DNA of 64,000 nucleotides from NCBI RefSeq assembly GCF_964340395.1, contig NC_135563.1, forward strand, positions 16,146,651 to 16,210,650. Reading direction: 5' to 3'. Below the pieces are notes generated by a model that did no database searches, was not told the DNA's origin, and saw only the letters and a list, made by a program, of their open reading frames with translations. Origin of the DNA: Glandiceps talaboti. Taxonomy: Eukaryota > Hemichordata > Enteropneusta > Spengelidae. The translations under genes and the position numbers were made by a program. Below are positions 19,414 to 37,758 of this stretch, in pieces (position 1 is the stretch's first letter; each line of letters starts with the position of its first letter).

Positions 19414-22400
19414 TTACTGAACAGGGTCAATATTAAAGTTGTCAAACTGTGCATGGTTGTGTGTGGTTGTACCAATGCCAACCCATCCATTGCTGGAATT
19501 GTTCAGAGTAACTTCAAACAACTTCTTTCCATTCAAGTGTCCTATCACTTGTTTATCCTGCAAGAACAAAGAGTAAGGAGATGTCAAAAAAATAGTCACG
19601 ACAAAACATGTACCACTGAATATATCTTGAAATTGTTTACTTTTCACTTCAAATAGCCTAAAATAAAAGTACACCCCTTCAATATTTTATTTAAGTTACA
19701 AATAAAGCCCTTATGACTGTCTACTAAGTTATCATCAAATGTAGTAATTTTTAAAGAGAGAGAAAAAAAATGAGAGGTGACAAAGAAAAGCCTCATGGTG
19801 AATATTTGCTGTTACAACATTTAAGCTTTTATCTACCAATACAAGGAGACAATTTGTCAGTACAATCTTACAATCTTACAGGACTTGCTAGAAATTCAAA
19901 ATCTTTAGGCAAACCAGTTCTTCTTAAAATATTTTAATATTAAAATGTCTAATACATGTATTTAGCAATCCAAGTCTTACCTTCACATACAGTGATGCCC
20001 TATACCAATGTTTGGCTTTCACCTCACAACTACCTTGACTAACTTTGATAACTTGTTCTGAAAATAAACGAGAAAGGCTAAGTGTAAACTAGCAGCTGAA
20101 AAAATTACCCTTTCTATTACACAAATTTCTAGCATTTTCTGATACATTCAGAAAAAAAACAACTTCAAAGTCAAATTTCTAGAATTTGAAATCCAGTTGC
20201 TTTTAAATAATTGAATTTTAGGATATTTAAAAAATGAAATCTCTGTAAATATGAATAGCACACAGCAGAAAAGCAATGCATTCCCTGCTTTGACATATGT
20301 CATGCATAATTAAAGTAGTTCTGCTGCCATTCTGAGAATTCAACTCCCCCCTCCCACCTTCAGCACATGTCATAACTGAATTACATCAAAATCAGCAGTA
20401 ATGTATTGTGAAAGTTCAATGCCTCGACAAGTTTGCTTCTTTCTCAAACAAGTCCAGAACAAAGTAGAAACCCATAAGTTGTACATTCTGCTGACTGTTC
20501 TTCAAAGAACAATTATTCCTACACAATGTTGGAAGTTGAGGGCGCTATGTAGTTACTGACAGCACTCACAAAGAATACCATAAAGTTGAGGGCATTGTGT
20601 AGTTGCTGACAGCACTTATTTTAGTATAACCAACAGCCCAAAAAAGTAATGTAAATTTGAGGGCACATAGTTGCTATCAATAGCCAAACTGAGTACCATA
20701 TATAAGACTTTGTCGATGTCCTACCATGGTCTGTTGTCACTGTGTACTTCCCTGGTGTGATCCATAAAAACACACCAATAGCTAGTCTAAGATTACAGCT
20801 TCCAGCACTGACTCTTGCCGCTAATAGTACACCACCATTATTATCCTCTATGTATACATCACTGGATACATTAACATTGGTCCTGTACACAAATATACAA
20901 ACAAATCTCATCATGCTAATGTCTGTACACAAAGAATGGTACTCCGGCTGTTTTGTTGTCAATGTTACTATGTATGAATTTAGATTAGATGGGGGATACA
21001 CATATACAAATCATTGTTTGTGTGAGAACAGTTAGGTCAGTTTATGTTGCTTGTGAGAGTATACATATGTCTGTGTTACTATTGTAAGCATGATGAATAT
21101 GTTTTAATATCAAATGAAAAAACAACGACTACTTGGTAAATGACTTATCTAGTATACAGTATAGTTACCAATGATTGAAGAGGGTGAATTCAAGTCATTC
21201 CACCAGACAACTTGACATTAAAGGAATGAGGTAAGTGACTTACCAAGTATAGTTACCAATAACTGAAGAGGGTGAATTCAAATCATTCCACCAGCCAACT
21301 TGACATTAAAGGAATGAGATAAGTGACTTACCAAGTATAGTTACCAATGATTGAAGTGGGTGAATTGGAATCATTACACCAGACAACTGGACAATGAGGT
21401 AAGTGACTTACCAAGTATAGTTACCAATGACTGATGTGGGGGAATTGGAATCATTACACCAGACAACTGGACGTTGTGTTACCATCTGTCTCATGACCTT
21501 CCCATGAGTAATGTCGTTAGTTTGATGGATCTCAAAAACACCAGACTGGTCTGCAAAGTTGGCTGCTTCACTATATTCTGGATATGCTGAATAAATAGAA
21601 GAAAATGACAGACTCAGAAATTTGCTAATAAATTTGACAGTAAAGGCAGACAAATCTACAAAATTACAAAAACACATGGTTCACATAATCCGTAACAAAT
21701 AGAGAACACATTATTTTCACGCTCACCTTCAAAATCATCCTTATATGGTAGTGGAAATGGACTTGACTTTGGAATGCCAGAGAACTCCCCTTTACCTCCA
21801 ATAACAAAACTTGTCAGTGTATACACTGAATCTACATCAAGTTCAATGGTAAACTGACTATCCACGACCTGAGTAAAACAAATCCAACACAACAAGTCAA
21901 AAAATCACTTTTTTAAGATAACAAATCTCTTATTACATGTGTTCATATGTAAGTGTAGTCTAGGTCCTGACAGGGACCGTATTACGTACTACAATTCAAG
22001 TCTAGTCAATCCCGTTGCTCAAGGCATTAAATGTGGTTCAACTGCAATGGTAAGCAAAGTGCAAATGGCGCATGTCAGTAGTAATCCATCACAAATTGAC
22101 AGGCTGTCGTCATCGCTCATTAATATTCATTTGTACAGCTGATTCAGTTTTGACTATGATATGCAAATATCCAACCAGGACTCCATCTCCAGTCTATTTA
22201 AACTTAAATCACGTGGGGATGCCACGATGTCATCATGTTTATATGAACGCCATAGAGGCAGCACAGTTATCTGAGCTTGAGCAACAGTATTGACTAGACG
22301 GGAACTGTAGTGTGTAATACGGTCCCGGTCAGAACCTAGACTAAAGTAAGTATTACTCTGGTAACTGAGGTCTCAGTTTACAAAGATAGACACAAACTAA

Positions 22401-25400
22401 AACTATAACATTATTGTCGCAACATGTTGATATAAGGTACCGAGTGGACTTCGGTTTGGTTGTAGACACAGGAGGGTGACATTTTGATCACATCTACATT
22501 TTTTGGGACTCCAACTGTTTACACTATTTTGATCACAGGGTGATTAGATTTGCACAATAATTTAAAGACACAGCTATCATCCACTTGTGTAATTATAGAC
22601 ACTATACTTTCGTGTAGGGTTTATGGTGTAATCTACCACATCAAACAAAAATAGTTTTAGTTTGTGTCTATCTTAGTAAACTGAAGTCTTGATTACTAGA
22701 GTCTTCAGTATGTTTGCAAATCATGTATGTCATGTAAAAAAAATCATTTCAGTACATGCTTAAAGGCCCACTTGAGATTAGGATTAAAACTTATGAGGAA
22801 AAAGCAGTTGTTTGGTAATGCTATAGACAAAGTTGGACAGGAACAAAACAATCATCCTTCGTAATCCTTATTAAGATAACACTAATGTGATGACCCAGGA
22901 TTTAAACATGGCCCTTTTAGTCAAAAATCTATTCTGTGGATATTTATTTCATTTGCTATGTTTCCATTGGTGTCATAATAGATACAGAGTTGCTGTTTGC
23001 TAGTTCAGACACTTCGATCTGTACTACTCAAAAATTTAACACAAAAATATTTTGACATTTTTATTGCTCTAAAAATAGCACTTCCATGGATATTTCATGT
23101 TTGGTTATTCTATAAAACCTGTTCTTTATGATTGTATATTTCTTGCACAGCAAAGTCCTGGTAAATGTGTGTTGTTAGAAAATATTGCTGTTTGCAATTG
23201 AAAACAAAAGAACAATTCAATTCTGCCTCCTGTGGTCCTTACCTCTATGTTATCCAACGATTCAAACAGAGTAGTCTTGCCACCATTAAATCCAAGCTTA
23301 GAATGCCAAACATGAAGTTCTTCAATACCAGTCTGCATAAACATCAAATATATGTTATTATTGAAATATGTGGATAATTTCTAGAAATATATTTTACCCC
23401 TAGATTGCCAGCATAACTCCCTAGTCCCTATAATATTCCCCTTGATACATCTATAAAGTGCAACACTGAGAAAATCCACTTACACTTGAAGATGGAAATC
23501 CAGTTATCATTTTGCTGGTTTGCACAGTGTAACATTACAATTTTCAAGTCTAACTTCCGGAATCAAAATGTAGTGACAATACTATGGGGTCAAGAAGAAA
23601 TAAGCTTAACACACAGATTTGTTGATAGTTGTAGTATGTTTTCAGATAATGTAACACTTACACAGTTTTAGGGCCCTAAATGTAATGATAGTATATACAC
23701 AAGTTACAGCATTCCAAGGATTGATAGTTACAGTGCAGTGTGTTAGGATAGTAAAAATACTTCTACAATTCCAATAAGGTCATCATTATGATTATAACTT
23801 ACATACTTACATGGCATTCTAAGGGTTCAATATTCAGGTTACTGTTACAGTATTTCAAAGTGAACAGAATCTAGTTGAATACCTTTTTTACTAACTAGTG
23901 CTATAGACACTCTTTGAACATGCCTTTTTTCCCCCAAATTTAAAGTTTCAAGGACAGGGTATACATATCACTGTGCCATCTAATGAATGACAATGATTTT
24001 TTGTTGCGGGTCAAAATGACAGAAATTGGGTTAGGGTACGAGAATATCATTGGGTTTAATACAAAGAATTGCTGTGGATGAGGAGCACATGAAATTGGCT
24101 TAGAATGGTAGGCATTCATTACTGTTGTAAACTTTCATAACCAATTTTCAGAAAAAAAACTGACAACATACTATCATAAAATTCAACTTACATAGTTGCC
24201 TTTCAAATGGAAAGTTGCATTCTGCTTTTCAACGGTGTACTTTGGTAGTGGTGGTCTCACACATATGCTATGATCATGAGTCTGCAAAAAAAAAAGAGAT
24301 TTATTTTCTTCATGGACACGCAAGCTTTCTTACAATTTCACATTAATATCTAAATATTTTACAGTATCTAATATGTTTCAGTCAGTGAACCATATTTTGG
24401 TCATACATAAGTACATATTTGTGATTCAATTTGTATTGGGTGAATGTTCAGTACATTTGTTTTTGCATAAAACTCATTTTCCTAAAGTCAATAAGCCATA
24501 TTTTTGTCGTACATAAGCATATGTTTGTGATTAAAATTATGTTGGATGAATGTGTGGTATATTTGCATAAAACTCATTTACCCTAAAGTCAGTATGCCAT
24601 ATTGTTTGTTATACATAAGTACATATTTGTGATTCAATTTATGTTGGCCATCTGATATGTTACATACAGAAGAGACCACTGTACTTTTTAAAGAATGAAA
24701 ATATTACTGGATCAGATTTGTTAGGTTTTACACAAATCTGACCACCATTATTGAAAAAATGGATCAACATTTTTTTTTACATAAAACTTACCATGGTTTC
24801 TATGACAATTGTAATAATATGTATTATATCATCATTAGTAAAAGTGACATAACTTCCACCTTTGTCAAGATGACCTACACCAGCACCATGTTGAAAATAT
24901 TTGAACCCAGGAAATGCAAACTGAGTTGTGTGAGCTGTAATCAAATCATAAAAGAACATATTTTAACATGAAATGTTGTCTGTCAAAATAATTATTATAT
25001 TATACTGTGCACAAGCCATGTTATTGTCTTTGAACAGAAAATATGGATTACATATTCTGATAGTTCTATGCCACTACTACCTTGTCTACATTACTGGTTC
25101 TGTGGCGCTCAAAATATGCATCAAATTGTTGCAAATTGCAATTTTTCCCCCGATATTTCGATGCCACTGAAATCAGTACCACTTTTAATCTACAGTAAAA
25201 ATTACGCCACAAAATTGTATAAACTCAGCTTTTGTCAAGAATTGTTATTAACCAAAACATTGTTACCTGTAATGTAGATAGGACTTGCCACCTCATAATG
25301 ACCACTCCATGGCTCATTGGCAGTCATAAGACCATCTCGTTTCCATGACAAGTTGTCATAGTAACTGGCTATCAAATTCCAAGAAATGGTACTGGTCATA

Positions 25401-25489
25401 TGCCCATTCACATAATTTTGATTCAAAATCTGTAGGGTAGAAACATTTGATTATACAAGTTAATTGTCAAGAAGACCTAGCGCTGGTAG

Positions 25490-25722: not shown

Positions 25723-28700
25723 TATATACATCACTAGTGATAATATTTTAACTTCAAAATGTCATCAACTATTGTTTTTAATTTATCATATTACATGTTT
25801 TTTTCAATACTATATTTAACAACAAGAACATACCTAATCTTTAATTCATCATTATCATTATCAATCATGTGACATCGACATAAACTGTCAACAATATTAC
25901 CAAATAGTTGTATCTTACCCTCGCCCAGCATCCACCACCAACATTGTCATTAAAAGTACTGTAGTCTTCTGATGCCCATAGTGGTTTATTAGTCTTGATT
26001 GCATCAGCCACTGTATGTGTACCAGGATAATGTGCTCTGTAGATAAAGAAACGGACAAATCTTGACAAAATATTTTATTGGAAATTGCCTACATATTTTG
26101 GTGCCTAGATAGTAAGCTCTAGTTTATGATATCAGGATTGTCAATCACTGTATCATATCTTTGTACCTAGGTATAGTCTGGAGGCTATCCGTTGCATTGA
26201 GTATCTTCTATGAGAGATCAAATTTCAATATGTATACTGGACTGAGACATGCATAAAGTTACAATTCCTTGACTTTGCATTTGAAATAATGATGGTGGGG
26301 CTTCAATAACAAAACATGCAGTACATAGATATTATTACAAATGTTAACATTAAAAAAAATACATGACATTACTTATTTCAATATACAAAATGTTAACAAT
26401 GAATAATTATGAACTTGCAAATTTCAAGTTTTATTGTAAATAAAGCAAATGATGAAAACTACTATCTATAATTCAAATAAACAAAAAAAAATGTATTTTT
26501 CGATAACGTCTTTATCAACTCATGTAACTCCCAAAATACCTCATCCGAATATTTGGTGTATATGCAAACGATATTCTATGACTCAAACATTAATACACTG
26601 GCATTATCACAGGGAGTGTATTAAAGATCAAGAACATCTATAAAATATGATGTCCTTCGTGAAAGGAAGAAAGCTTTGTATTGGAAATTGAAAAGTTTAT
26701 GCTATGATAATTATTTCTAAAATAACCATGCCTGTTGAAAACATCTATATTTACATATAATATGATATTTATAATTCTAAGGGGGATAGAATGACAGGGG
26801 AATGGAAAATTGCTCAAATTATTCATTATGGCAAATAGCAAAAAAAATGGGGTAGAGGAAATGTGATTATACATATAACTTTAGTACATAGAAAACAAAC
26901 TATGTACTGGTGTATGCAATCACAAGTACACAAAGACACCATATAGTTGTTACCAGCACTGTGTTTTACAGTCTGAATGTACTCTTTGATCACCATTTTG
27001 CATTCAAACAAGTTGTATCTTTTGATAACACTTTTATTTTTTACACCAAAACACCTTTTAACGAAACCAAGATTTTTGACAGTGAAGTTGACATGAAATT
27101 AATCTTCATAGCTAAAATGATTTTCTTAGTTTAAAATTAATGATGATGTACAGAAAGCAGAGGTATGATTGGCTTTGACATTTTAGCAATGTAAAATTGT
27201 TACCATGACAACACTGAATTACCACCAAATAATGACAACTGTTTTATTAAAATTATGTTACCATGACATCATTGCCCAGTAATATCAACTGTCTTATCAA
27301 AATCTTGTTACCATGACAACACTGAATTACTCACCCAATGATATCAACTGTTTTATTAAAATCAGGATGTTTTAGAAGATCATCAGCAATTTCCCATTTT
27401 TCATCTGCTGCCACTATTTTCACATTTTTCAAGTCATTGTCATCCAGAGTTTTCCTTAATGTCTTTACATAGGGAATATTATATGCTCTCTCATTCCAAA
27501 TCTGAAAGTGTACATGCCTTCTTTTGTCAGTTTATTTCAGCAAAGATTTGTGTCGTACAGAAGAGTACTGTACTGATCTGGTTGCTGTGTTGGAGTAATA
27601 AATGGTTGAAGAGCGAACTTGCAATCCAGACTGAGCATGCTCAGATGCAAAGGACTATGGGATTATATGTGGTTATTGTAATACCTAATCTGGAGCTACC
27701 GATAAAATAAACCTCCCACAATTGTCAGGGTAACTATGAATTGATCATTTGTGGTTGTGAACAATGTAACAGTATTGTTTACAATACCAATTCATTAGTA
27801 TTTATTATCACATTTCCCATGATGCAACATTCAACATGGCGGGTTTGCAAGTTCCCTGTTAGAGTGGCTGACTTTGAATCTGCAGAGTACCAGTCTTGAC
27901 ACCACTGCTGTGCAACTTTGGGCAAGATTTGAACCAAACTTGCATCCTATTTCATCAACCCAACTACATAATTGGGACCTGGTAGGATAGAGGTTGAATG
28001 TGCTTATAGAAATTAATATTTGTCTTCTATATAACACATACATGACATAATAATATCAACAGGTGTGACAAATTGGATTCTCAATCACATTTCGATACAA
28101 CTATGACAGAACATAATAGTAGTCAACAGAGCACTAGTCTATGACACATTACTTGATCATGACAACTTCATTCTTGAAAATCTCGTGGGTTTTTTTTTTT
28201 ACAAGAATGAGATTTTGATCTTCATCTTTTAATCACTCATCTCCAAGGTGGTTTATGAAAACACACACATCTTCATGACATAAAATAGCAGCTTTTTTGA
28301 TAAAAATGTTTAGTGGCAGCAGAGGCAACAATTATTTGCAAAGAGCAAATGTGCATGAAAAGAATTCACAGCTGAACTCATATGTAGTTTGCCATATTTA
28401 TGTTTTGCAATAAGTACCGGACCATACAGAGGTCAAAGGTCAAAGTAACAACACACTGCTTTTCCTTACATCACCATAATGAAGCCATTTCAAATAGCAA
28501 TTATCCTTATTTCATTTGTCTCTGTGAACTTACAAGTATTAAGAGACTGTGGATATCAGTATTATCTAAAATTTTAAATCTGAATAATTATTCAAGAAAT
28601 TTTATGTCAGTATATTTATGAGAGATTTCCTATAATCATTGTTCTCAGTATTGGACAGTGGTTATTTCATTTTACTATATTCTTACAGTATTCTGGTTCC

Positions 28701-31700
28701 AGCAATATTTACATAATTTTAATTGTTCTTTAACGTTAGAGGGTGCTGTTCATTTCTAAAATGTATTATATTTTCTAGATTTGAGATCTGACATGGTTTT
28801 CCACAAATAACGGGTTTTCTAGATCTGACGTGATTTTCTAGATCTGACTTGGTGTTCTATATCTGACTTGGCTCGCTGGATCTGACATGGTTTTCTAGAT
28901 TTAATATGACTTTCTAGATCTCAGTGACAAGGTTTTCTATATCTGACTCAACTCTCTAGATCTGTACAAAACTCCAAGATTTTTTCTGTAAAGAGAATCT
29001 GGGTCATTTTAGTAACATAGGCCAACACATATCTATCTTCTAACTCAATGCAACATACCCAATTTTTTCAATAGCTTTAGCTAATTTGGGAGATTTCAAA
29101 ATATCTTTGGAAATAGTCCATTTTCCATATTTTTTACCACCGTCACAAGCAACAATCTTGACATTCTGGAAACTGTTGTCATCTAAAATCTGTCTTAGGA
29201 CTTCAATGTAACTATGATTACACTCTCTTTCATTGAATATCTGCAATATAATCATTTCACGAATTGTAAAATGTGTCGTACAAGTTTATTTGACAAGATG
29301 TAGAAATATTTCCACAGTCAAAATCAAAAATCAAAGTTACTATAGAGAAAAGGAAAAGTTGGGAAGAGCCTTATCATATTGAAAACATTCCTTACAAAAT
29401 CAATTTTACTCTTCTGGGAAGGTTGTGAGCCTCAATTTCAAGATCAAACTTTTTTTATCTATTGAGCTTTGGCTTACACAGTCCAGGTGATGGGCACCTA
29501 TAAATGGACCCCAAATTATCCTGGCAACTTAAACTTTATCACATATTTGCATCATTTTAATTTCATATCTATATAACTTTTATTAATATGTCCTTTGGAT
29601 TGAACCAATCTCTGTCTTTGTGTATCCCTTGTTGTGATTTTAGGCAACTGTTTTGACAATCACATGATTTTATGCTGAGTTTGGAATCTTATTCTTGTGT
29701 GGTATGGTAGTACTACGGTAGTACATTAGAGCATAGACCCTACATGTACACGTGTAAGGTCTATGATTAGAGAAATCCATACTACTGATACTAGCACTAC
29801 ATGGAACAAGAAGATAGAAGTTATGATGGTAATATAGAGATAGCAAGCTAAAAGTTAATTAATTAAGTAGCAGTCAGTCACCTGTTTAGTTAGTTAGTGA
29901 CAAATGGTTAGTTTTCCCCCATTCACTGTTTTTGAAGTGAGATAGGCAAGTATTTCATAAAGGAGTGTGTTAGTTACACATATTCACATTCAAATATATA
30001 ATCATAGAATGGAACATTTAACATTAATAACATATACAGAACAGCAACATTTAGAACACAACAGAATGAAGAAAACATATTTCAGAAATACATTAGAAAG
30101 ACTTCCTTTAAACTCCCTTACCTGTTACGCTTGTGATAATCCCCCCCCCCAAAAAAAAAAAAAAATTACACACCAAACCAAATAACCTAATCTTCAATGT
30201 TTGTATATTTCTTCATTTTTTCAATGCAGACTCAATGATTGCTCTAAAATTTCAAGGATGGGGGGGGGGGGGGGGGGGGGTGTCGAGCAAGTTGTATGAA
30301 TTTGAGCAGTGCAAAATACATCAAATTCATCAAATCTACTGTTACATGGAACTTGTGATCTCTCTATTGAGTACTTACCCCAATGTAATCAATATCAAGG
30401 TCATGATATTTTTTGGCTCCCTTGATCCAATTCAAAATGTACTTAGCTGTGACTTGTGGGTTTTTATATGGAGATGTTGTACCGTTGCCAAGCCAACCAG
30501 GGAAACTCCAGGGTAGTCCATACAACTTGATATCGGGATTACGCTAAAATGTCATAAAAGTGATATGGTAAGTCCTACAGATTATAATTTGAAAGTTGTG
30601 AAAGAAGTTATTCATTCTGTTTAATATTTTGTTGAAATGTAATGAGATACATATTTTTAATCCTCATACTTTATGAAAAATATAGAATCAAATCATATCA
30701 AACGATAATTTTTATTCACAAAGTCAAAAAACATTTTTGAGAGCAAATCCCAAATTATTACTACTGACATCTTGCCAGCATTGTCAGAGGTGTCCTAAAA
30801 TAGGCCAGCTGTCCTCAAATACTTGATATTTCTATAACTTAATTCACAGATGAAACTAATTTAATTTTCAATTAAATTTTGAATATACAATAAAGACGAA
30901 AAACTTCAGATGTGGATAATGCCCCTTTAAAGTCATGTGATATGTTCTTGACATGTGATTATGTGTTGAGTCAGTATTTTAGAATTTAATATTTTATATA
31001 TATACATTACCGCTTTTGCTTCTTTCATCAGCCACCATTCATAACCACGTTGATAGTTTTCATCATTTGCTGTGTGCATGTGAGAAGCTTCGGTACCATC
31101 AGAACTCTGCGCATCTCCTCCTATTTCCACTTTCAGAATGTGTAGAGATGCTCCAAAATTTGGCTATGAGGGGAAAAACCATAATATAGGAAACGGTTCT
31201 TGGGTACAATTTATCAACACAACTACTAGAATTGGCATAAAAATTTCCATTGGTACATTCTACATAAAGAACTATCAAGAGACAATAGTAAGTTTATATT
31301 ATGAGGTGTATACATATCTATACATATTAATTTACACCTCAATTTTGTGTGCTGCACTGTTTGCATTAGTTTTATTACAGTATCATACAGTATTTACCCA
31401 CACTCTCTGACAGTGTGAGTTGAATAAACAAAGACTTGGAATGGATTGAATTCAAATGTATGTGACATGTTTACCTGGTAGTGTTTTTGCTGAAGACAGT
31501 GAGTAAGTAAAATTTGCTCAGGAAAGTGAGTACTTAACATTTACCCTAGTTTCACAGTCACTTTACTATGGTTCTAAACAAACTTACGGTACAATGGAAT
31601 GTATAACAAACTCAAAACAGTTTTACCAAATTTCTCCAAGATCTGTTACCATGGTTTCCCAAACTTTTATCATTATTGATTAAATCAACATAAATAAGTC

Positions 31701-33843
31701 TTAACATTGTACATATTGTTGATCCACTGAAAATGAATTTATGCCAAAGTATGAAACTGAAGTTAACCTCAAGAAAATGTTAGGTCACAGTTACCAGGTA
31801 CTATGCACACTTACCATAAATAAAAGATCCAATATCTGATTCCTATATATCTCTGGATAACTCACTAGTAATCTTGATGTGGCCTGAAAATATAAAATTA
31901 TTGTCTTAAATATTATTATCCCTAGGATTCTTTCTATCTTTTAGTGATGTAAAAATAATGAGGAACATTTTGTGAAATATTACTCAGCAATTAAAAGAAA
32001 GCTATGTACACTCCCACAACATAGGATTTTCTGTAACCACATTAACTTTGCACTAATTTGCATAGTCATCAAAACTTCAAATAGTAGCAACACAACTGAA
32101 ATAAGCAGGAGCAATTTGATAACATTGGTGAACAGACAATATGTATTGTATCAGACCATTTTTATTTTTATGAACAGGATTACATATTATCTTAGTATGG
32201 TTCAATCATATTATTTTAGTCATGGTTAGAATCTGACCCTTAATTTCTATGTCATAGTACCATATCTATGTACCCATTGTCTGACTTTGAGAGAATGTCT
32301 CCTTAACCAATGACCATTGAACTTTATACTATGGATGCATTTCACAAGTACCCAGATGTGTTTTGTACAAGGTAGTACAGTAGTATTTGTGTCATCAGTA
32401 GCAGTCATAATATAAAGAGTGTACATACTAGTTCTAGAGTGTACATACTGTTCTAGTAGTAGTACTAGCTACTGGTACTAACTAGTAAAGAAAACACCAT
32501 AGATAAAAGGTTTTGAGTCAGGGTGGTGGATGGGGGTGGGGTTATTCCCATATTTGATATTAGTAACTGTGCTGTATGTTTGTCTACAGGTGTTTGAGGT
32601 ACATTGTCCATGTTGTCATTTCAGTTAGTATTATAATATCAGGCGTAGAACTCTTGCCTGCAATTGTTAAATTCTATCTCTACCATGTACCAGGGGGTAT
32701 TTATTTGTCCACAAACTGGGATAAAGATGTGGAACAAAGCATCAGACTGCAGACTGTGGTCTAGTTTGTTATTCCATTCGTAATGATTAAATAGGTGTGT
32801 TTTCATACGTTCAAAGACCAATGTTCACAATCTTTCCAAAAGAATGATGTTATTTTGTATGCATCTAAAATGTTACTGCTTTCCATTCACTAGAACACCT
32901 GGCATACATTTTCCCCAAAGATTCTGAAGAAAATGGCGAGGCTACAGCAGATACATTGCTGACATGCACACAAATACATATGGTCACATGTGCATGGTGT
33001 GTACACGGGTTTCCAAAATAGAATGTACACGCGTACACGCCCACTATTCAACCCTAGAATGTCACCATTTGAGGAGACAGGCGTGAATGTCAGAAAATAC
33101 CGTGCAACTTCAAGTGTTCGCATGGTTAATGATAATTAACATGTGACTAGCATTTATGTCAGGTTTCTGTGACAACAGAATCAATGTTGTGAGGAGAAAT
33201 ACTAGTAGTAATAACATGCATCACGGAAATAATTTTGTTTTGTTTTATTCATCTACATATAACTGCATCAGCGTTTGCAAATCGAGCATTGTTGGCTGTA
33301 ATTACCCGATTTGTAATATTGTAACAATATGTAACGTTTATGAAATTCGTATCTTTAAGACATACTTTACTCAAAAGGGCACGTATTATTGCTTATATTG
33401 CCGTTTTTTAAGGAAAATATCGTACGAATTCTGCTGCTACAAATGTATCAATCTCTATACTATACAAGTAGAAATATCTCCGAATATATAGTCAAAAGGT
33501 TGTTATATTTAGTCTGTAGACCTGAAAAACAACAATCTATGAAATATTACATGCCCCTATGACTTTACTATACTACGCTACGAGCATCTCCCCCGGCCCT
33601 GATACATCCATGCTACGAGAAAGTTTTATAAATTGATTGCAAGGTCATGACCTATAGAGTTGTAGATTAGTTCCTCATCGGTTTTACCAGAGTTTTACTT
33701 ACCCCGCCACCACTGATCCCTCCAATTCCGTCAAATACTCGTCCAAGACCCTTCGTGTCATCAATATCGTATGTACTTGACAATATGGTCCCAACAATCA
33801 GAGCGTACGCAACGAAAAACGTGCACGTTTGAAAGGCTGCCAT
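19414..33843 (-). CDS. GALC: galactocerebrosidase (galactosylceramidase)
   Basis: Lysosomal glycoside hydrolase (family GH59) that removes galactose from galactosylceramide and psychosine. Coding exons: 33,843-33,703; 31,883-31,815; 31,163-31,011; 30,543-30,379; 29,240-29,059 (5a) or 27,501-27,335 (5b); 26,036-25,919; 25,429-25,267; 24,934-24,792; 24,281-24,192; 23,332-23,243; 21,868-21,727; 21,586-21,412; 20,882-20,725; 20,057-19,981; 19,557-19,414 (TAA). All phases agree; the product is 664 aa with 5b or 669 with 5a, against about 685 in human. Residues 1-23 form a signal peptide. Motifs: [48 protein letters not shown] (acid/base E180), LWASEDYS (nucleophile E255 in the 5b form), [35 protein letters not shown] and the C-terminal lectin-like AQFDNF. 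The start is the ATG at 33,843; the frame is open further upstream but has no other ATG. Exon duplication at position 5 is described separately. Confidence 0.97.
20535..20690. repeat. short GTTGAGGGC repeats in a GALC intron
   Basis: Three spaced copies of a unit with (T)TGAGGGC followed by TAGTTGCT-like sequence, each about 50-55 bp apart. The last is degenerate. Confidence 0.55.
21151..21411. repeat. tandem copies of the GALC exon 12 3' end with its splice donor
   Basis: The ATAGTTACCA core of the real exon end at 21,417 recurs at 21,337, 21,249 and 21,161 (spacings 80, 88, 88). The copies include about 45 bp of exon-derived sequence and, in the two nearest, an intact ACTTAC (GTAAGT on the minus strand). 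They lie in the intron directly downstream of exon 12. Confidence 0.9.
21954..22345. mobile_element. MITE with ~70-bp inverted ends
   Basis: The left end TGTAGTCTAGGTCCTGAC and the complement of the right end TTTAGTCTAGGTTCTGAC match over about 70 bp with scattered differences. GTAAG flanks both sides (21,949-21,953 and 22,346-22,350), a probable 5-bp target duplication. No coding capacity. It sits in the GALC intron between exons 10 and 11. Confidence 0.82.
25491..25716. repeat. (GT)n microsatellite, ~225 bp
   Basis: Nearly uninterrupted GT dinucleotides with occasional TTTG interruptions, in the GALC intron between exons 6 and 7, 60 bp upstream (minus sense) of exon 7. The long Cys-Val or His-Thr frames it creates are not genes. 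Confidence 0.97.
27180..27334. repeat. tandem copies of the GALC exon 5b 3' end
   Basis: The exon-end sequence ATATCAACTGTTTTATTAAA (minus strand: exon tail) recurs twice downstream, at about 27,224-27,251 and 27,279-27,303, each with the adjoining GTTACCATGACA(A/T)CA segment. Spacing is about 55 bp. A GG-GTGGTA donor-like site survives in the outer copy. Confidence 0.8.
27335..27501 (-). CDS. GALC: GALC alternative exon 5b (canonical-like)
   Basis: A 167-bp exon with acceptor CTTTCAG and donor GTGAGT. It encodes [17 protein letters not shown], then [13 protein letters not shown], then FNKTVDIIG. It is nearer the vertebrate sequence (IWNER, then VDVIG) than 5a. It joins exon 4 in phase 0 and exon 6 in phase 2 (split Gly codon). 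Joining 5a to 5b shifts the frame and meets a stop about a dozen codons in. Confidence 0.93.
27850..28040 (+). mobile_element. degenerate SINE fragment, copy 3
   Basis: It shares GGGCAAGATTTGAACCA, CATAATTGGGACCTGGTAGGAT and GAGGTTG with the SINEs at 14,510 and 38,019, but is diverged and shortened at both ends. It lies in the intron between GALC exons 5a and 5b. Confidence 0.7.
28765..28978. repeat. ~22-bp minisatellite between alternative GALC exons
   Basis: About nine units of TTTTCTAGATCTGACTTGG type. Many contain the self-complementary AGATCT. It is 80 bp downstream (minus sense) of alternative exon 5a. Confidence 0.85.
29059..29240 (-). CDS. GALC: GALC alternative exon 5a
   Basis: A 182-bp exon with acceptor TTGCAG and donor GTATGT. 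It encodes [15 protein letters not shown], then [16 protein letters not shown], then AKAIEKIG. It aligns along its length with exon 5b and with the vertebrate IWNER segment, keeping Asn-Glu-Arg but replacing the Trp before it with Phe. It is five codons longer than 5b, in the middle. It starts in phase 0 and ends in phase 2, exactly as 5b does, so it can replace 5b but cannot be joined to it in frame. The frame is fully open, which argues against a decaying copy. Confidence 0.85.
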
Positions 33844-34952
33844 TGCCAACCTTTCAAGTTTCAATAATGACAAACGTTTTCTCAGGTGTTCATAGTGCTA
33901 TCACCACTGAGGGCGTGATACAAAAATATCATCTGAGGAGACTTGATCCTGTACAATACAAAGAGGAACAACATTTGTGCATGAAACTTTGCTTTTGCGA
34001 AATTTTGTAAATACTTTCCATTCGTATTACAAGACATGTAAGAGACTAACTACGTACATTTTGTGCACGTGATCATATAATCCAGTAGCTAGGGCCTTAA
34101 TGCAACAGAAATCTGGTCGACGATTCAAGTTGTCATGTTCATCCAAAAATTGTCTTTGACTTGTGACGCGACGAAATATTTTTTGATGCATTAAATTAAT
34201 TTTGAAAGGTAGGCAACATTATTTTTATCTATTATTTTTCAAAAATTATTTTATCATTGTAATGATAAAAAATAACATTTTTCATTTGCTTGTTAGCTTC
34301 TCACTAAAAAGTTAAACAATGCTGGTTCTACAAATATCCAACTACACATGTAACAAGAAACTCGACGTGCAAGTGTCCCTTTATTTGTCGAAATCCATTC
34401 AAATAGTTATATAGTGTTATTTCTAACCTCATTTGTCGCAGAAAATCTTCATTATTCAAACTGCATATAGAAGTAATTATTATAGAACAAAAGTAAAAAG
34501 TCATTGAAAGAAAAAAAAGCGAAAAATACAAAGATTATAAAAAGTAACAAGTAATGCATTTATAAGCGGAGATTGTAAGCCTAGTTCCACTGAGCGAATC
34601 GTTCATTCATTCATTCATTCATTCATTCATTCATTCATTCGTTCGTTCGTTCATTCATTCATTCATTCATTCATTCATTCATTCATTCATTCATTCATTC
34701 ATTCATTCATTCATTCATTCATTCATTCATTCGTTCGTTCGTTCATTCATTCATTCATTCATTCATTGACCTGCACATGTATGTCACATCTTTTTAGGAG
34801 GGGTAATAGCTTGTACACCCACCCTTCGTTAAGTCGTCCAATGAGGTCACGTGACCTTTCGCAACTACATATCAAGTTCATCAAAGAGCCCAGGCCACAT
34901 CGACTTACAGCACAGTCACAGTGTACGTACTCCCAGTGAATATCGACTGAAA
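33844..34952. promoter_or_regulatory. GALC/AKR head-to-head promoter region with CLEAR-type sites
   Basis: 1.1 kb separates the two start codons. A perfect GTCACGTGAC palindrome is at 34,846-34,855, about 100 bp before the reductase ATG and next to a CCAAT (34,839). A second E-box, GCACGTGATC, is at 34,065-34,074, about 220 bp upstream of the GALC ATG. GTCACGTGAC is the consensus of the CLEAR element bound by TFEB/MITF factors at lysosomal genes. That fits GALC; occupancy here is inference. Confidence 0.55.
34601..34767. repeat. (ATTC)n microsatellite with GTTC interruptions
   Basis: About 40 tetranucleotide units, in the middle of the bidirectional spacer between GALC and the aldo-keto reductase gene. 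Confidence 0.97.
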
Positions 34953-37758
34953 ATGGCTGTTCAAGTATTTCACACTCTACCTGGCGGACATAAGATGCCA
35001 TCTGTTGGACTTGGAACCTGGAAGGTATTAGACACTGGCACAATTCAACAGTTGGTTGATCAAATGATATTTTTAACATTTAATAGGACTAGCTATGTGT
35101 TACATCATATGTACTATGTGTGCTCTGATTCGACACACATCCGTTTCTCTAGTGTGGATGCCATATCGAATATCTTCAGATTCAAACCCAATGGGTAGCT
35201 ACATGAAGTCTGAAAGATCCAGTCGTTGGCCTGCTAATGTAACCACTCGCCACCCACCTGTATTGATTTCATTTTCCGATAAAAATTATGTAACAGTTTA
35301 TGACGGTACGTGGGTTAGAGTCGGTACGTGTATGAAACACGCTGTTCAATGTATGTTTGATCCAGACAGCTTCCCCACTATTAATCTAGCTACAAATACA
35401 AACTACTATAAAACAATGAACTGTGATGCCTGGCTGGACATTTTGTGTATGGTAAAAGGCTTATGTAACGACTATATCTTTCAGTACGTCAACCTTTACA
35501 AAGAATGGCTTTTATAATTCAAATTATAAATTATTATCAATATATTTTTTTAAAGTACAAAGTACATTCAATCTTACAATCAAAGACTTGGGTGTGTACT
35601 TTAATACTTTATAACTTGTGTGTAGAGCTGATAACGCGGACAAGCTTGAACTTTTTGAAGCGTGATTCGTATAAATCATCAAAATACACATTTTTTACGA
35701 AGTATGTTGATTTTCCACATATTCTCATCAACATAATCAACGTTCTAGCGTAATGAATATTGTCATTTGTACACAATGCATTAACAATTTACATATTGAT
35801 AGCATGAATATAGCTTGTTTATTCAGCATGAAATCTCATTACAGGGTACATGGCCATCTCTCTCTTCACATCCCCAAGTATTGTCCTGCTTGCATACGGA
35901 GTATTAGTCGTCCGGTGTTGAGGGTCATGTCAGTAATCTAGACCCGTGCACAGTCTGTAAGCAGGACTACACATCCCCAAACTTCCTGTTCACCGATACT
36001 TTAATATATAGCTCAGACAGTGCTATAAACATTTCGATTTGTGTGTTTAACTTATTTGTTTGCAGTCTAAACCTGGTGAAGTGACAAATGCTGTCAAGTG
36101 TGCCATTGATGAAGGATATCGGCACATTGACTGTGCCCATGCATATGGCAATGAAGATGAAGTTGGTCTTGCTTTACATGAAAAACTAAGTAGTGGAAAA
36201 GTGAAACGGGAAGATTTATTCATCTGTAGTAAGGTATTTGTTTCTGTACCTGATTTACTTAGTTTCTCTTATTTTAGTAATATTTAAATTTACTGCCAAT
36301 GTTACTCCTAACTGTACTTGTGTGAGCCTCTGATCCAAAAGGGATACAATTTATTTATTTATTTATTTATTTATTCAGGTAAACCAACGGGCATAAAGCC
36401 CATTTACAGGCACCTTTAAAAACAAATAAGGAAAAACAAGCACTAAAAAGATAAAACAAGGGGTAGCAATAACAGAAGTGACATGACATAAAAGGCAAAC
36501 ACAGAAATAAAAACAACAAAACAGGAAAAATTATTAAAAACACGCAGCCTGAAGCACACACATGTAATATATAAATATAAATAATACTACACAGATATAT
36601 TTGTCATAATAGACCATGTCTAGCCTGGATACTTGACTATCAGCATGATCAGACTACCACCACAAGCCAAGTCTCATGGCCATTTCTAGGATGGCTTTTG
36701 TAAATTACTAGACATAAACAAATTTCAAGGCCAGGGTTTTAATATATTCACAGTGAGATACAATGTTTCATCAGGATTTTGTCTTTGTTATGCATGTCAA
36801 TTATTGTAGTGTATGTAGTTTGCATGTACTGGTACTTCTGGTGAAAAGTCAATACAAAAGTTATTGTGGGAGAAATTGTCTGTTTGTCCATACGTACGTA
36901 CGTACGTACGTACGTACGTCCATCCATACTTACATATGTGTGTATGTATGTATGTATGTATGTATGTATGTATGTATGTATGTATGTATGTATGTATGTA
37001 TGTATGTATGTATGTATGTATGTATGTATGTATGTATGTATGTATGTATGTATGTATGTATGTATGTATGTATGTATGTATGTGTGTGTGTATGTATGTG
37101 AGTATGTTATGTGTGTGTGTGGGGGGGAGTAATTGACTTACTATAAAAATTCATTCGAAAAAGTAGATATAGCACACATCACTATACACCAGGGAATTGT
37201 AATTGTTTCTCTTTTTAATATTACAGATATGGAATGTAGATCATCATCCAGAGGACGTGAAAAAGGCTTGTCTGAAAACATTGGAATCTCTTCAACTGGG
37301 TTATTTAGATCTTTATTTGATGCATTGGCCTATGGCATACCAGGTAAGGAAAAGTTGCATTATTTAGATCTTAAATTTACTTCATGCATTGGCCTAAGGT
37401 AAGGTTGTGTAGATCTTGGAAAGAGAAAAGATTACAGTAAGATAAGATTTGAAAAAATGTTTACATACCAAATATGTATATTTTGGTTTAATGAAATCAG
37501 ATGTATTGTATGATGAAAATCTCAGGAAGGTCTGTAGTTTGCAGCCTCTAGTTTGACCTAACACCTTATCTTTGTTGTTTTGTTCTAGAGAGGTGAAAAT
37601 AAATTTCCCAAAGATGAGAATGGCAAGTTCATTTATGCTGACACTGATTTTGTGGATACCTGGAAGGTAGGGTTATGGTAGTGTTGAATGGAAACTTTCA
37701 CTTCAAAGGGGCTGTTATAATATATGTAGCCAGTAACTATGGATCGTGCCTCCCTGCT

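Follow-up and report, generated by a model that had tools for sequence, protein, structure and literature searches.

Two probably mutually exclusive exons encode alternative versions of the acid/base block of galactocerebrosidase in the acorn worm Glandiceps talaboti

The lysosomal enzyme galactocerebrosidase (GALC) cleaves galactose off galactosylceramide and psychosine; Krabbe disease results when it is lost. The catalytic residues of mouse GALC are given as E182 and E258 (PMC4445328), and saposin A is described as covering the GALC active site and contacting all three domains (PMC5764952). Among the systems closest to the one reported here are mutually exclusive, tandemly arranged homologous exons in general, such as those that Abascal et al. 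collected for human (2015; PMC4465641); ancient origin is described as common among them, and GALC does not occur in the available text of that paper. The evolution of ARSA and GALC was studied in 2025, and that work describes exons gained and lost while the active sites were retained, together with an exon duplication towards the N terminus in one bat, apparently in GALC (PMC12008523). Here we describe two alternative exons, 5a and 5b, in the GALC gene of Glandiceps talaboti, a hemichordate of the family Spengelidae and not a vertebrate, found in a window of 64,000 nucleotides (assembly GCF_964340395.1, contig NC_135563.1, positions 16,146,651 to 16,210,650). Like the human pairs, these are adjacent homologous exons of which one would be used at a time, whereas in Glandiceps the swapped block holds a catalytic residue of a lysosomal hydrolase. 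Since some starfish and fish proteins show a comparable exchange, an enzyme that is best known through human Krabbe disease may exist in two forms in other animals.

The complete gene occupies window positions 33,843-19,414 on the minus strand and has 15 coding exons separated by GT-AG introns (Table 1). Its 664-residue product spliced with exon 5b is identical over the full length to a deposited Glandiceps talaboti ‘galactocerebrosidase-like’ protein (P0003), for which precomputed annotation gives the domains PF02057, PF21708 and PF17387. This 5b form, the one examined in this respect, has the sequence and fold of a glycoside hydrolase family 59 (GH59) GALC over its full length: it aligns with mouse GALC (3zr5, 4ccc and 5nxb) over its residues 22-662 (E 7e-237), and its structure predicted from P0003 with a 41-sequence alignment (mean predicted local distance difference test score 85, predicted template modelling score 0.86) matches mouse GALC 3zr5 with template modelling (TM) scores of 0.92/0.96.

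Exons 5a and 5b lie on the minus strand between exons 4 and 6, at exactly the coordinates given in the original prediction, which had also described both as fully open, bordered by AG and GT, entered in phase 0 and left in phase 2; the gene model bears this out. The acceptor and donor borders are attgcag/ATATTC and AATTGG/gtatgt for 5a and tttcag/ATTTGG and CATTGG/gtgagt for 5b, and the common phases make each exon compatible with its flanking exons. With 5a alone an open protein of 669 residues is obtained and with 5b alone one of 664 residues, both running to the normal stop, whereas the joint splicing of 5a and 5b leads to a stop at codon 249 and the omission of both to a stop at codon 187, so that the predicted break of frame in either case is confirmed. 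Each exon shifts the frame by two bases and the two therefore cannot be combined, so that the full enzyme can come only from messages containing a single one of them. We consider it probable, with good though incomplete assurance, that Glandiceps GALC has in 5a and 5b a tandem duplication whose two members are used as mutually exclusive exons. Messages with both exons or with neither would end in an early stop and would probably be removed by message decay, and reading frame together with such decay would be the simplest enforcement of the choice between the two. Steric exclusion was rejected as a mechanism, since the intron of 1,557 nt that separates the exons is too long for crowding to enforce the choice, and a mismatch of U2- and U12-type splice sites is unlikely, all introns being GT-AG with U2-like donors.

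The exchanged block holds the catalytic acid/base glutamate, as had been claimed: in the alignment, E180 of the Glandiceps protein corresponds to mouse E182, the acid/base, and E255 to mouse E258. In the model of the 5b form, exon 5 (residues 177-231) starts directly after the strand 174-176, bears E180 and continues through helix 185-197, strand 204-209 and helices 213-220 and 222-227, ending in strand 230-234. Each exon would encode one structural unit of the triosephosphate isomerase (TIM) barrel, which opens with the Asn and acid/base Glu that immediately follow strand 4, runs on through helix 4, strand 5 and the subsequent loop, and closes with helix 5 and the first part of strand 6. The two peculiarities originally pointed out for 5a, a replacement of Trp by Phe before NER and an insertion of five codons, are both seen (F178; 5a is longer than 5b by 15 nt), and the alignment places the five extra residues after Asp209, at the end of strand 5. 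In TIM barrels the loops after the strands face the active site. The 5a enzyme is predicted to keep the Asn-Glu pair, to carry Phe in place of Trp and to present its five additional residues on the catalytic face, behind strand 5. Galactosidase activity would probably be retained, with the second shell and the rim of the active site altered in shape; a changed galactolipid preference or tissue use of this form may be the outcome. Mouse GALC presents one version of the block in its chain, in contrast to Glandiceps with its second version containing Phe before NE and the five-residue insertion. If correct, this would be a clean case of splicing that swaps the surroundings of a catalytic residue while the rest of the protein is untouched.

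The homology of the two exons is apparent from tblastn searches of the window with nine GALC proteins as queries, two of them the window's own forms (E up to 0.1), in which the 5b form matches 5a with E 5e-11, a match between adjacent homologous exons. Of 55 aligned codons, 28 specify identical residues in the two exons, and 68 of 165 nucleotides differ, the differences falling at 21, 14 and 33 of the 55 first, second and third codon positions. Pairwise non-synonymous (dN) and synonymous (dS) divergences are 0.34 and 1.54 by the LWL85 method, and the NG86 method gives a dN of 0.37 with dS saturated; the likelihood estimate (dN 0.86, dS 11.9) is unusable. For comparison across animals, two protein searches, with the best 120 hits taken from each of 5,380 and 6,487, provided 163 different GALC proteins altogether, of which 41 were chosen by hand for an alignment (A2). 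Ten positions of the block (177-180, 187, 191, 192, 195, 207 and 209) are invariant or nearly so in this alignment and kept by 5b, and 5a retains nine of them, the catalytic Glu included. The Asn-Glu pair is found in 5a, in 5b and in all 163 listed proteins, and the nucleophile E255 is invariant in the 41 aligned sequences. The Trp before NE, which is present in 5b and not in 5a, is conserved in the proteins compared here; we do not put it forward as a published defining feature of the family. Position 221, which is Asp in most GALCs, His in 5b and Ser in 5a, was left out of the ten.

Neutral change was simulated from 5b with no selection (5,000 runs per distance), a run being counted as passing when it stayed free of stops and retained 28 or more of 55 identities together with nine or more of the ten conserved residues. 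With 5b from the one genome as stand-in for the ancestor and with assumed distances, 2.9%, 0.3%, 0.04%, 0 and 0 of the runs passed at 0.2, 0.3, 0.4, 0.5 and 0.6 substitutions per site respectively. Half of the third-position divergence would by our estimate from 33/55 come to about 0.6, if an equal split between the exons is assumed. Judged from these sequences, neutral drift would rarely give rise to the state in which 5a is found.

The same kind of swap is present among deposited proteins of other animals. The compared proteins are deposited predictions, and pairs were taken to stem from one gene on the basis of identity outside the block and, where listed, contigs of equal length; 14 protein pairs were compared, picked by eye from their names, and six of them are same-species pairs with a swap of the block. 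Isoforms X3 and X5 of the starfish Asterias amurensis (P0082/P0127; contigs of equal listed length) differ by 32 substitutions in 608 aligned residues, all within residues 182-230, and X5 lacks residues 122-176, which is exactly exon 4 in Glandiceps. The pattern resembles that of a mutually exclusive pair sharing the exon borders of Glandiceps, the block being exchanged right after IWNER and the borders of exons 4 and 5 being alike, although both Asterias versions, unlike 5a, keep the Trp and have no insertion. Five same-species fish pairs exchange most of the same block. All substitutions fall within it in Embiotoca X1/X2 (P0060/P0028; 23/23), Neolamprologus X1/X2 (19/19) and Paramormyrops X1/X2 (P0133/P0148; 22/22), each with contigs of equal listed length, as they do in Dicentrarchus (20/20, with four gap columns elsewhere), while in Periophthalmus, with contigs of different length, 23 of 25 do so; in each of these last two pairs one member only has an isoform name. 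The fish resemble Glandiceps in having two versions of the block per species, with identical sequence outside the block in three of the five (Embiotoca, Neolamprologus and Paramormyrops). In four of the five fish pairs, unlike in Glandiceps, the exchange sets in only beyond residue 189, so that IWNER is shared between the fish versions; the first change lies at residue 190 in these four and at 186 in Periophthalmus, as against 177-182 in Glandiceps and Asterias.

The fish X1 type is distinguished by an extra residue (WxPI) and is also the type of the mouse chain; the residue is present in 59 of the 163 listed proteins and absent in 104. Both block types occur among the deposited proteins of bony fish, amphibians, lungfish and birds, whereas for sharks and the coelacanth at least the X2 type is found, and the few mammalian proteins listed, with the mouse chain, are of X1 type. 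A predicted pigeon GALC (Patagioenas fasciata isoform B, P0136) contains both versions of the block in tandem; the gene prediction has probably fused two exons that are alternatives, and the protein suggests the order of the two versions in the bird gene. Same-species pairs of Scomber, Anabas and Pomacea have no substitution in the exon 5 block, and P0144 differs from P0145 and from P0147 at two columns of the block, out of 25 and 24 in all. Pairs from Protopterus, Hoplias and Engraulis were rejected as exon swaps, since differences along the whole length or a location on separate contigs give them the appearance of distinct genes. The two Protopterus annectens proteins (P0013/P0018) are one of each block type and differ by 148 substitutions in total; the gene may have been duplicated, each copy then having settled on a different exon type. 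In the mollusc Pomacea canaliculata, isoforms X1 and X2 (P0116/P0160), whose contigs are listed with the same length, are distinguished by 33 substitutions which all fall within residues 481-538 in P0003 numbering, corresponding to exon 12, perhaps a second and separate swappable exon of GALC.

Mutually exclusive exons are of a known kind; the GALC pair and its starfish and fish counterparts were not found described in the open-access titles and abstract openings searched. A search for an exon-swap pair in GALC, which covered the best matches among open-access titles and abstract openings, with subscription papers, supplements and annotation databases outside its scope, found no description, and no open-access paper linking GALC with tandem exon duplication was found. 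The original prediction had known of no report of such exons in vertebrate GALC, and as regards the open-access papers searched this stands; as regards deposited sequences it does not, given the fish isoforms that swap most of the block. If these swaps are what they appear to be, the GALC pairs of acorn worm, starfish and fish are natural variants that could reveal which parts of the rim govern the preference for lipid or saposin, and one form of the enzyme may be missing from mammalian models.

How old the Glandiceps pair is was addressed with a tree of 41 exon segments, 40 from hand-chosen proteins of the 163 together with 5a. A serious possibility, to which we give somewhat less than an even chance, is that 5a and 5b arose by a duplication confined to hemichordates and separate in origin from the starfish and vertebrate pairs, the block having been duplicated several times; this concerns the history of the exons and is compatible with their mutually exclusive use. 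The different starts of the swap, in Glandiceps and Asterias on the one hand and in fish on the other, suggest different exon borders in agreement with this history, and the sister pairing of 5a with 5b is not rejected by the approximately unbiased (AU) test (0.35 for the whole block, 0.19 for the tail). Against it, in the best tree 5b joins Ptychodera and Saccoglossus, albeit weakly (31 and 63), and 5a falls elsewhere, while the echinoderm DNL-type exons (Acanthaster X1, Asterias X5 and Amphiura X2) join the vertebrate X1 type (approximate likelihood ratio test 89, bootstrap 84). Among 21 exons compared, 5a is nearest to that of the mussel Potamilus (33/56 residues), and is as close to a sponge exon as to 5b, with 29/56 to each of these, to Amphiura and to one further protein, although 56 residues are not decisive. 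Nor does the AU test reject a position of 5a within the hemichordates (0.54 for the whole block, 0.28 for the tail), with the starfish GKF type (0.49, 0.60) or with the echinoderm DNL type (0.41, 0.20), and it does not reject a clade of echinoderms only (0.37, 0.11), of ambulacrarians only (0.25, 0.08) or of vertebrates of both types only (0.45, 0.45); the vertebrate sequences are pulled together because the front part is identical in both of their types. For the tail, the columns which, from the usual layout of the output, we take to be bootstrap proportions by resampling of estimated log-likelihoods (bp-RELL) and expected likelihood weights (ELW) put the echinoderm-only and ambulacrarian-only clades outside the set. 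The sole arrangement rejected by the AU test is the sister pairing of the two Asterias exons (0.002, 0.00005), which the Shimodaira-Hasegawa test does not reject (0.28, 0.09); on the AU result the starfish pair probably predates Asterias.

An ancient deuterostome pair is possible and independent duplications no less so, mainly on account of the different border in vertebrates. We nevertheless advance, tentatively, the idea that GALC already had two forms in early deuterostomes, a duplicated and splice-chosen active-site exon predating the split of hemichordates, echinoderms and vertebrates, of which mammals may retain only one version and Glandiceps would have the most changed second copy. Should this be so, many vertebrates would possess a second GALC specificity that the species used for work on Krabbe disease lack.

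Several observations weigh against 5a being a selected exon in use. The one conserved position that it has lost, Trp178 (now Phe), is Trp in all 163 listed GALC proteins. The stand-in ancestor, assumed distances and single genome of the drift simulation count here too, as does the passing of 2.9% of neutral runs at the shortest distance, and the constraint on 5b itself adds to the pattern in which third codon positions differ most. A search of deposited proteins with the 5a block gave 17 candidates, none with E ≤ 0.001; the deposited Glandiceps protein contains 5b only, has no isoform number and is the one member of its cluster, and Ptychodera and Saccoglossus are represented among the best 120 proteins by one GALC each, 5b-like and with no isoform number. 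In the tblastn search Asterias X3 has no match to 5a at E ≤ 0.1, X5 matching it at 6e-4, and neither the trees nor the AU test, on 56 residues, assign 5a to any one group as an orthologue of the starfish or vertebrate versions. Lastly, pairing of the 5a donor with U1 (-6.5 kcal/mol) is the second weakest of the 15 donors; that of the 5b donor (-12.0 kcal/mol) is the strongest. The acceptors of 5a and 5b have 7/16 pyrimidines each, the poorest in the gene, the other 13 having 10-14. Regulated exons often have poor pyrimidine tracts, a pattern noticed here after the fact, and the weak splice sites of 5a fit a regulated exon and fit an unused one as well.

One alternative is that 5a is a relic, once used and selected, now rarely or never spliced in and still open through recency. 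The lack of a 5a protein among those found, the single Glandiceps protein with no isoform number, the weak donor and poor pyrimidine tract and the lost Trp all agree with such a history, yet the 182 nt of 5a contain no stop, frameshift or broken GT-AG border, nine of ten conserved residues are kept, and the pyrimidine tract of 5b is equally poor although 5b is present in the deposited protein; we consider a relic unlikely. Mutually exclusive use of a functional pair remains our preferred explanation. The pair is probably real and selected because of the intact exons of shared phase, the frame logic, the retention of conserved residues, the preponderance of differences at third codon positions, the drift simulation and the starfish and fish swaps, and we infer that 5a is used in RNA.

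It is less probable still, and in our view rather improbable, that 5a acts mainly as a switch-off exon, which when joined to 5b would introduce the stop at codon 249 and lower GALC output via message decay. The premature stop is indeed produced by joint inclusion, and the weak-looking splice sites of 5a could be regulated, but a poison exon requires no conservation of protein sequence, whereas 5a keeps NE and most of the conserved residues, and the deposited starfish and fish isoforms substitute one version for the other. An origin of 5a in a further GALC copy or in an error of assembly, conceivable for a single exon seen in one assembly, is very improbable, since tblastn finds no other full-exon GALC copy within the window (outside the 15 exons the 137 hits comprise only 5a and repeats of the exon 12 end in intron 12, so that the window holds no second gene copy to which 5a could belong) and the 68 nucleotide differences from 5b are far beyond allelic or assembly duplication.

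Table 1. Coding exons of the Glandiceps talaboti GALC gene and the intron between the alternative exons, in window positions.
Feature	Position	Strand	Description	Basis
Exon 1	33703..33843	-	residues 1-47, start ATG	gene model; 5b form identical to P0003
Exon 2	31815..31883	-		gene model
Exon 3	31011..31163	-		gene model
Exon 4	30379..30543	-	residues 122-176; common upstream exon; donor GGG/gtaagt; ends in phase 0	
Exon 5a	29059..29240	-	alternative exon; 182 nt; IFNER...; 60 codons + 2 nt	
5a-5b intron	27502..29058	-	1,557 nt; GT-AG	gene model
Exon 5b	27335..27501	-	167 nt; IWNER...; 55 codons + 2 nt; residues 177-231	
Exon 6	25919..26036	-	common downstream exon; entry phase 2	gene model
Exon 7	25267..25429	-		gene model
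Exon 8	24792..24934	-		gene model
Exon 9	24192..24281	-		gene model
Exon 10	23243..23332	-		gene model
Exon 11	21727..21868	-		gene model
Exon 12	21412..21586	-	residues 481-538	gene model
Exon 13	20725..20882	-		gene model
Exon 14	19981..20057	-		gene model
Exon 15	19414..19557	-	stop TAA	gene model

Two repeats lie within the gene. An 88-bp tandem array of 3.7 copies (21158-21472, minus strand) repeats the 3′ end of exon 12 and its donor into intron 12, where two further copies preserve the TTG/gtaagt donor, and a degenerate 19/38-bp tandem repeat around AGATCTGACAT (28784-28964) is situated in the 5a-5b intron downstream of 5a. Outside GALC, an open reading frame at 34851-35198 on the plus strand, divergent from GALC, may, judging by its motif, correspond to the first exon of an aldo-keto reductase, and open segments at about 52800-48067 on the minus strand, upstream of GALC on the same strand, may encode a TMEM127-like membrane protein, to which they bear a resemblance.

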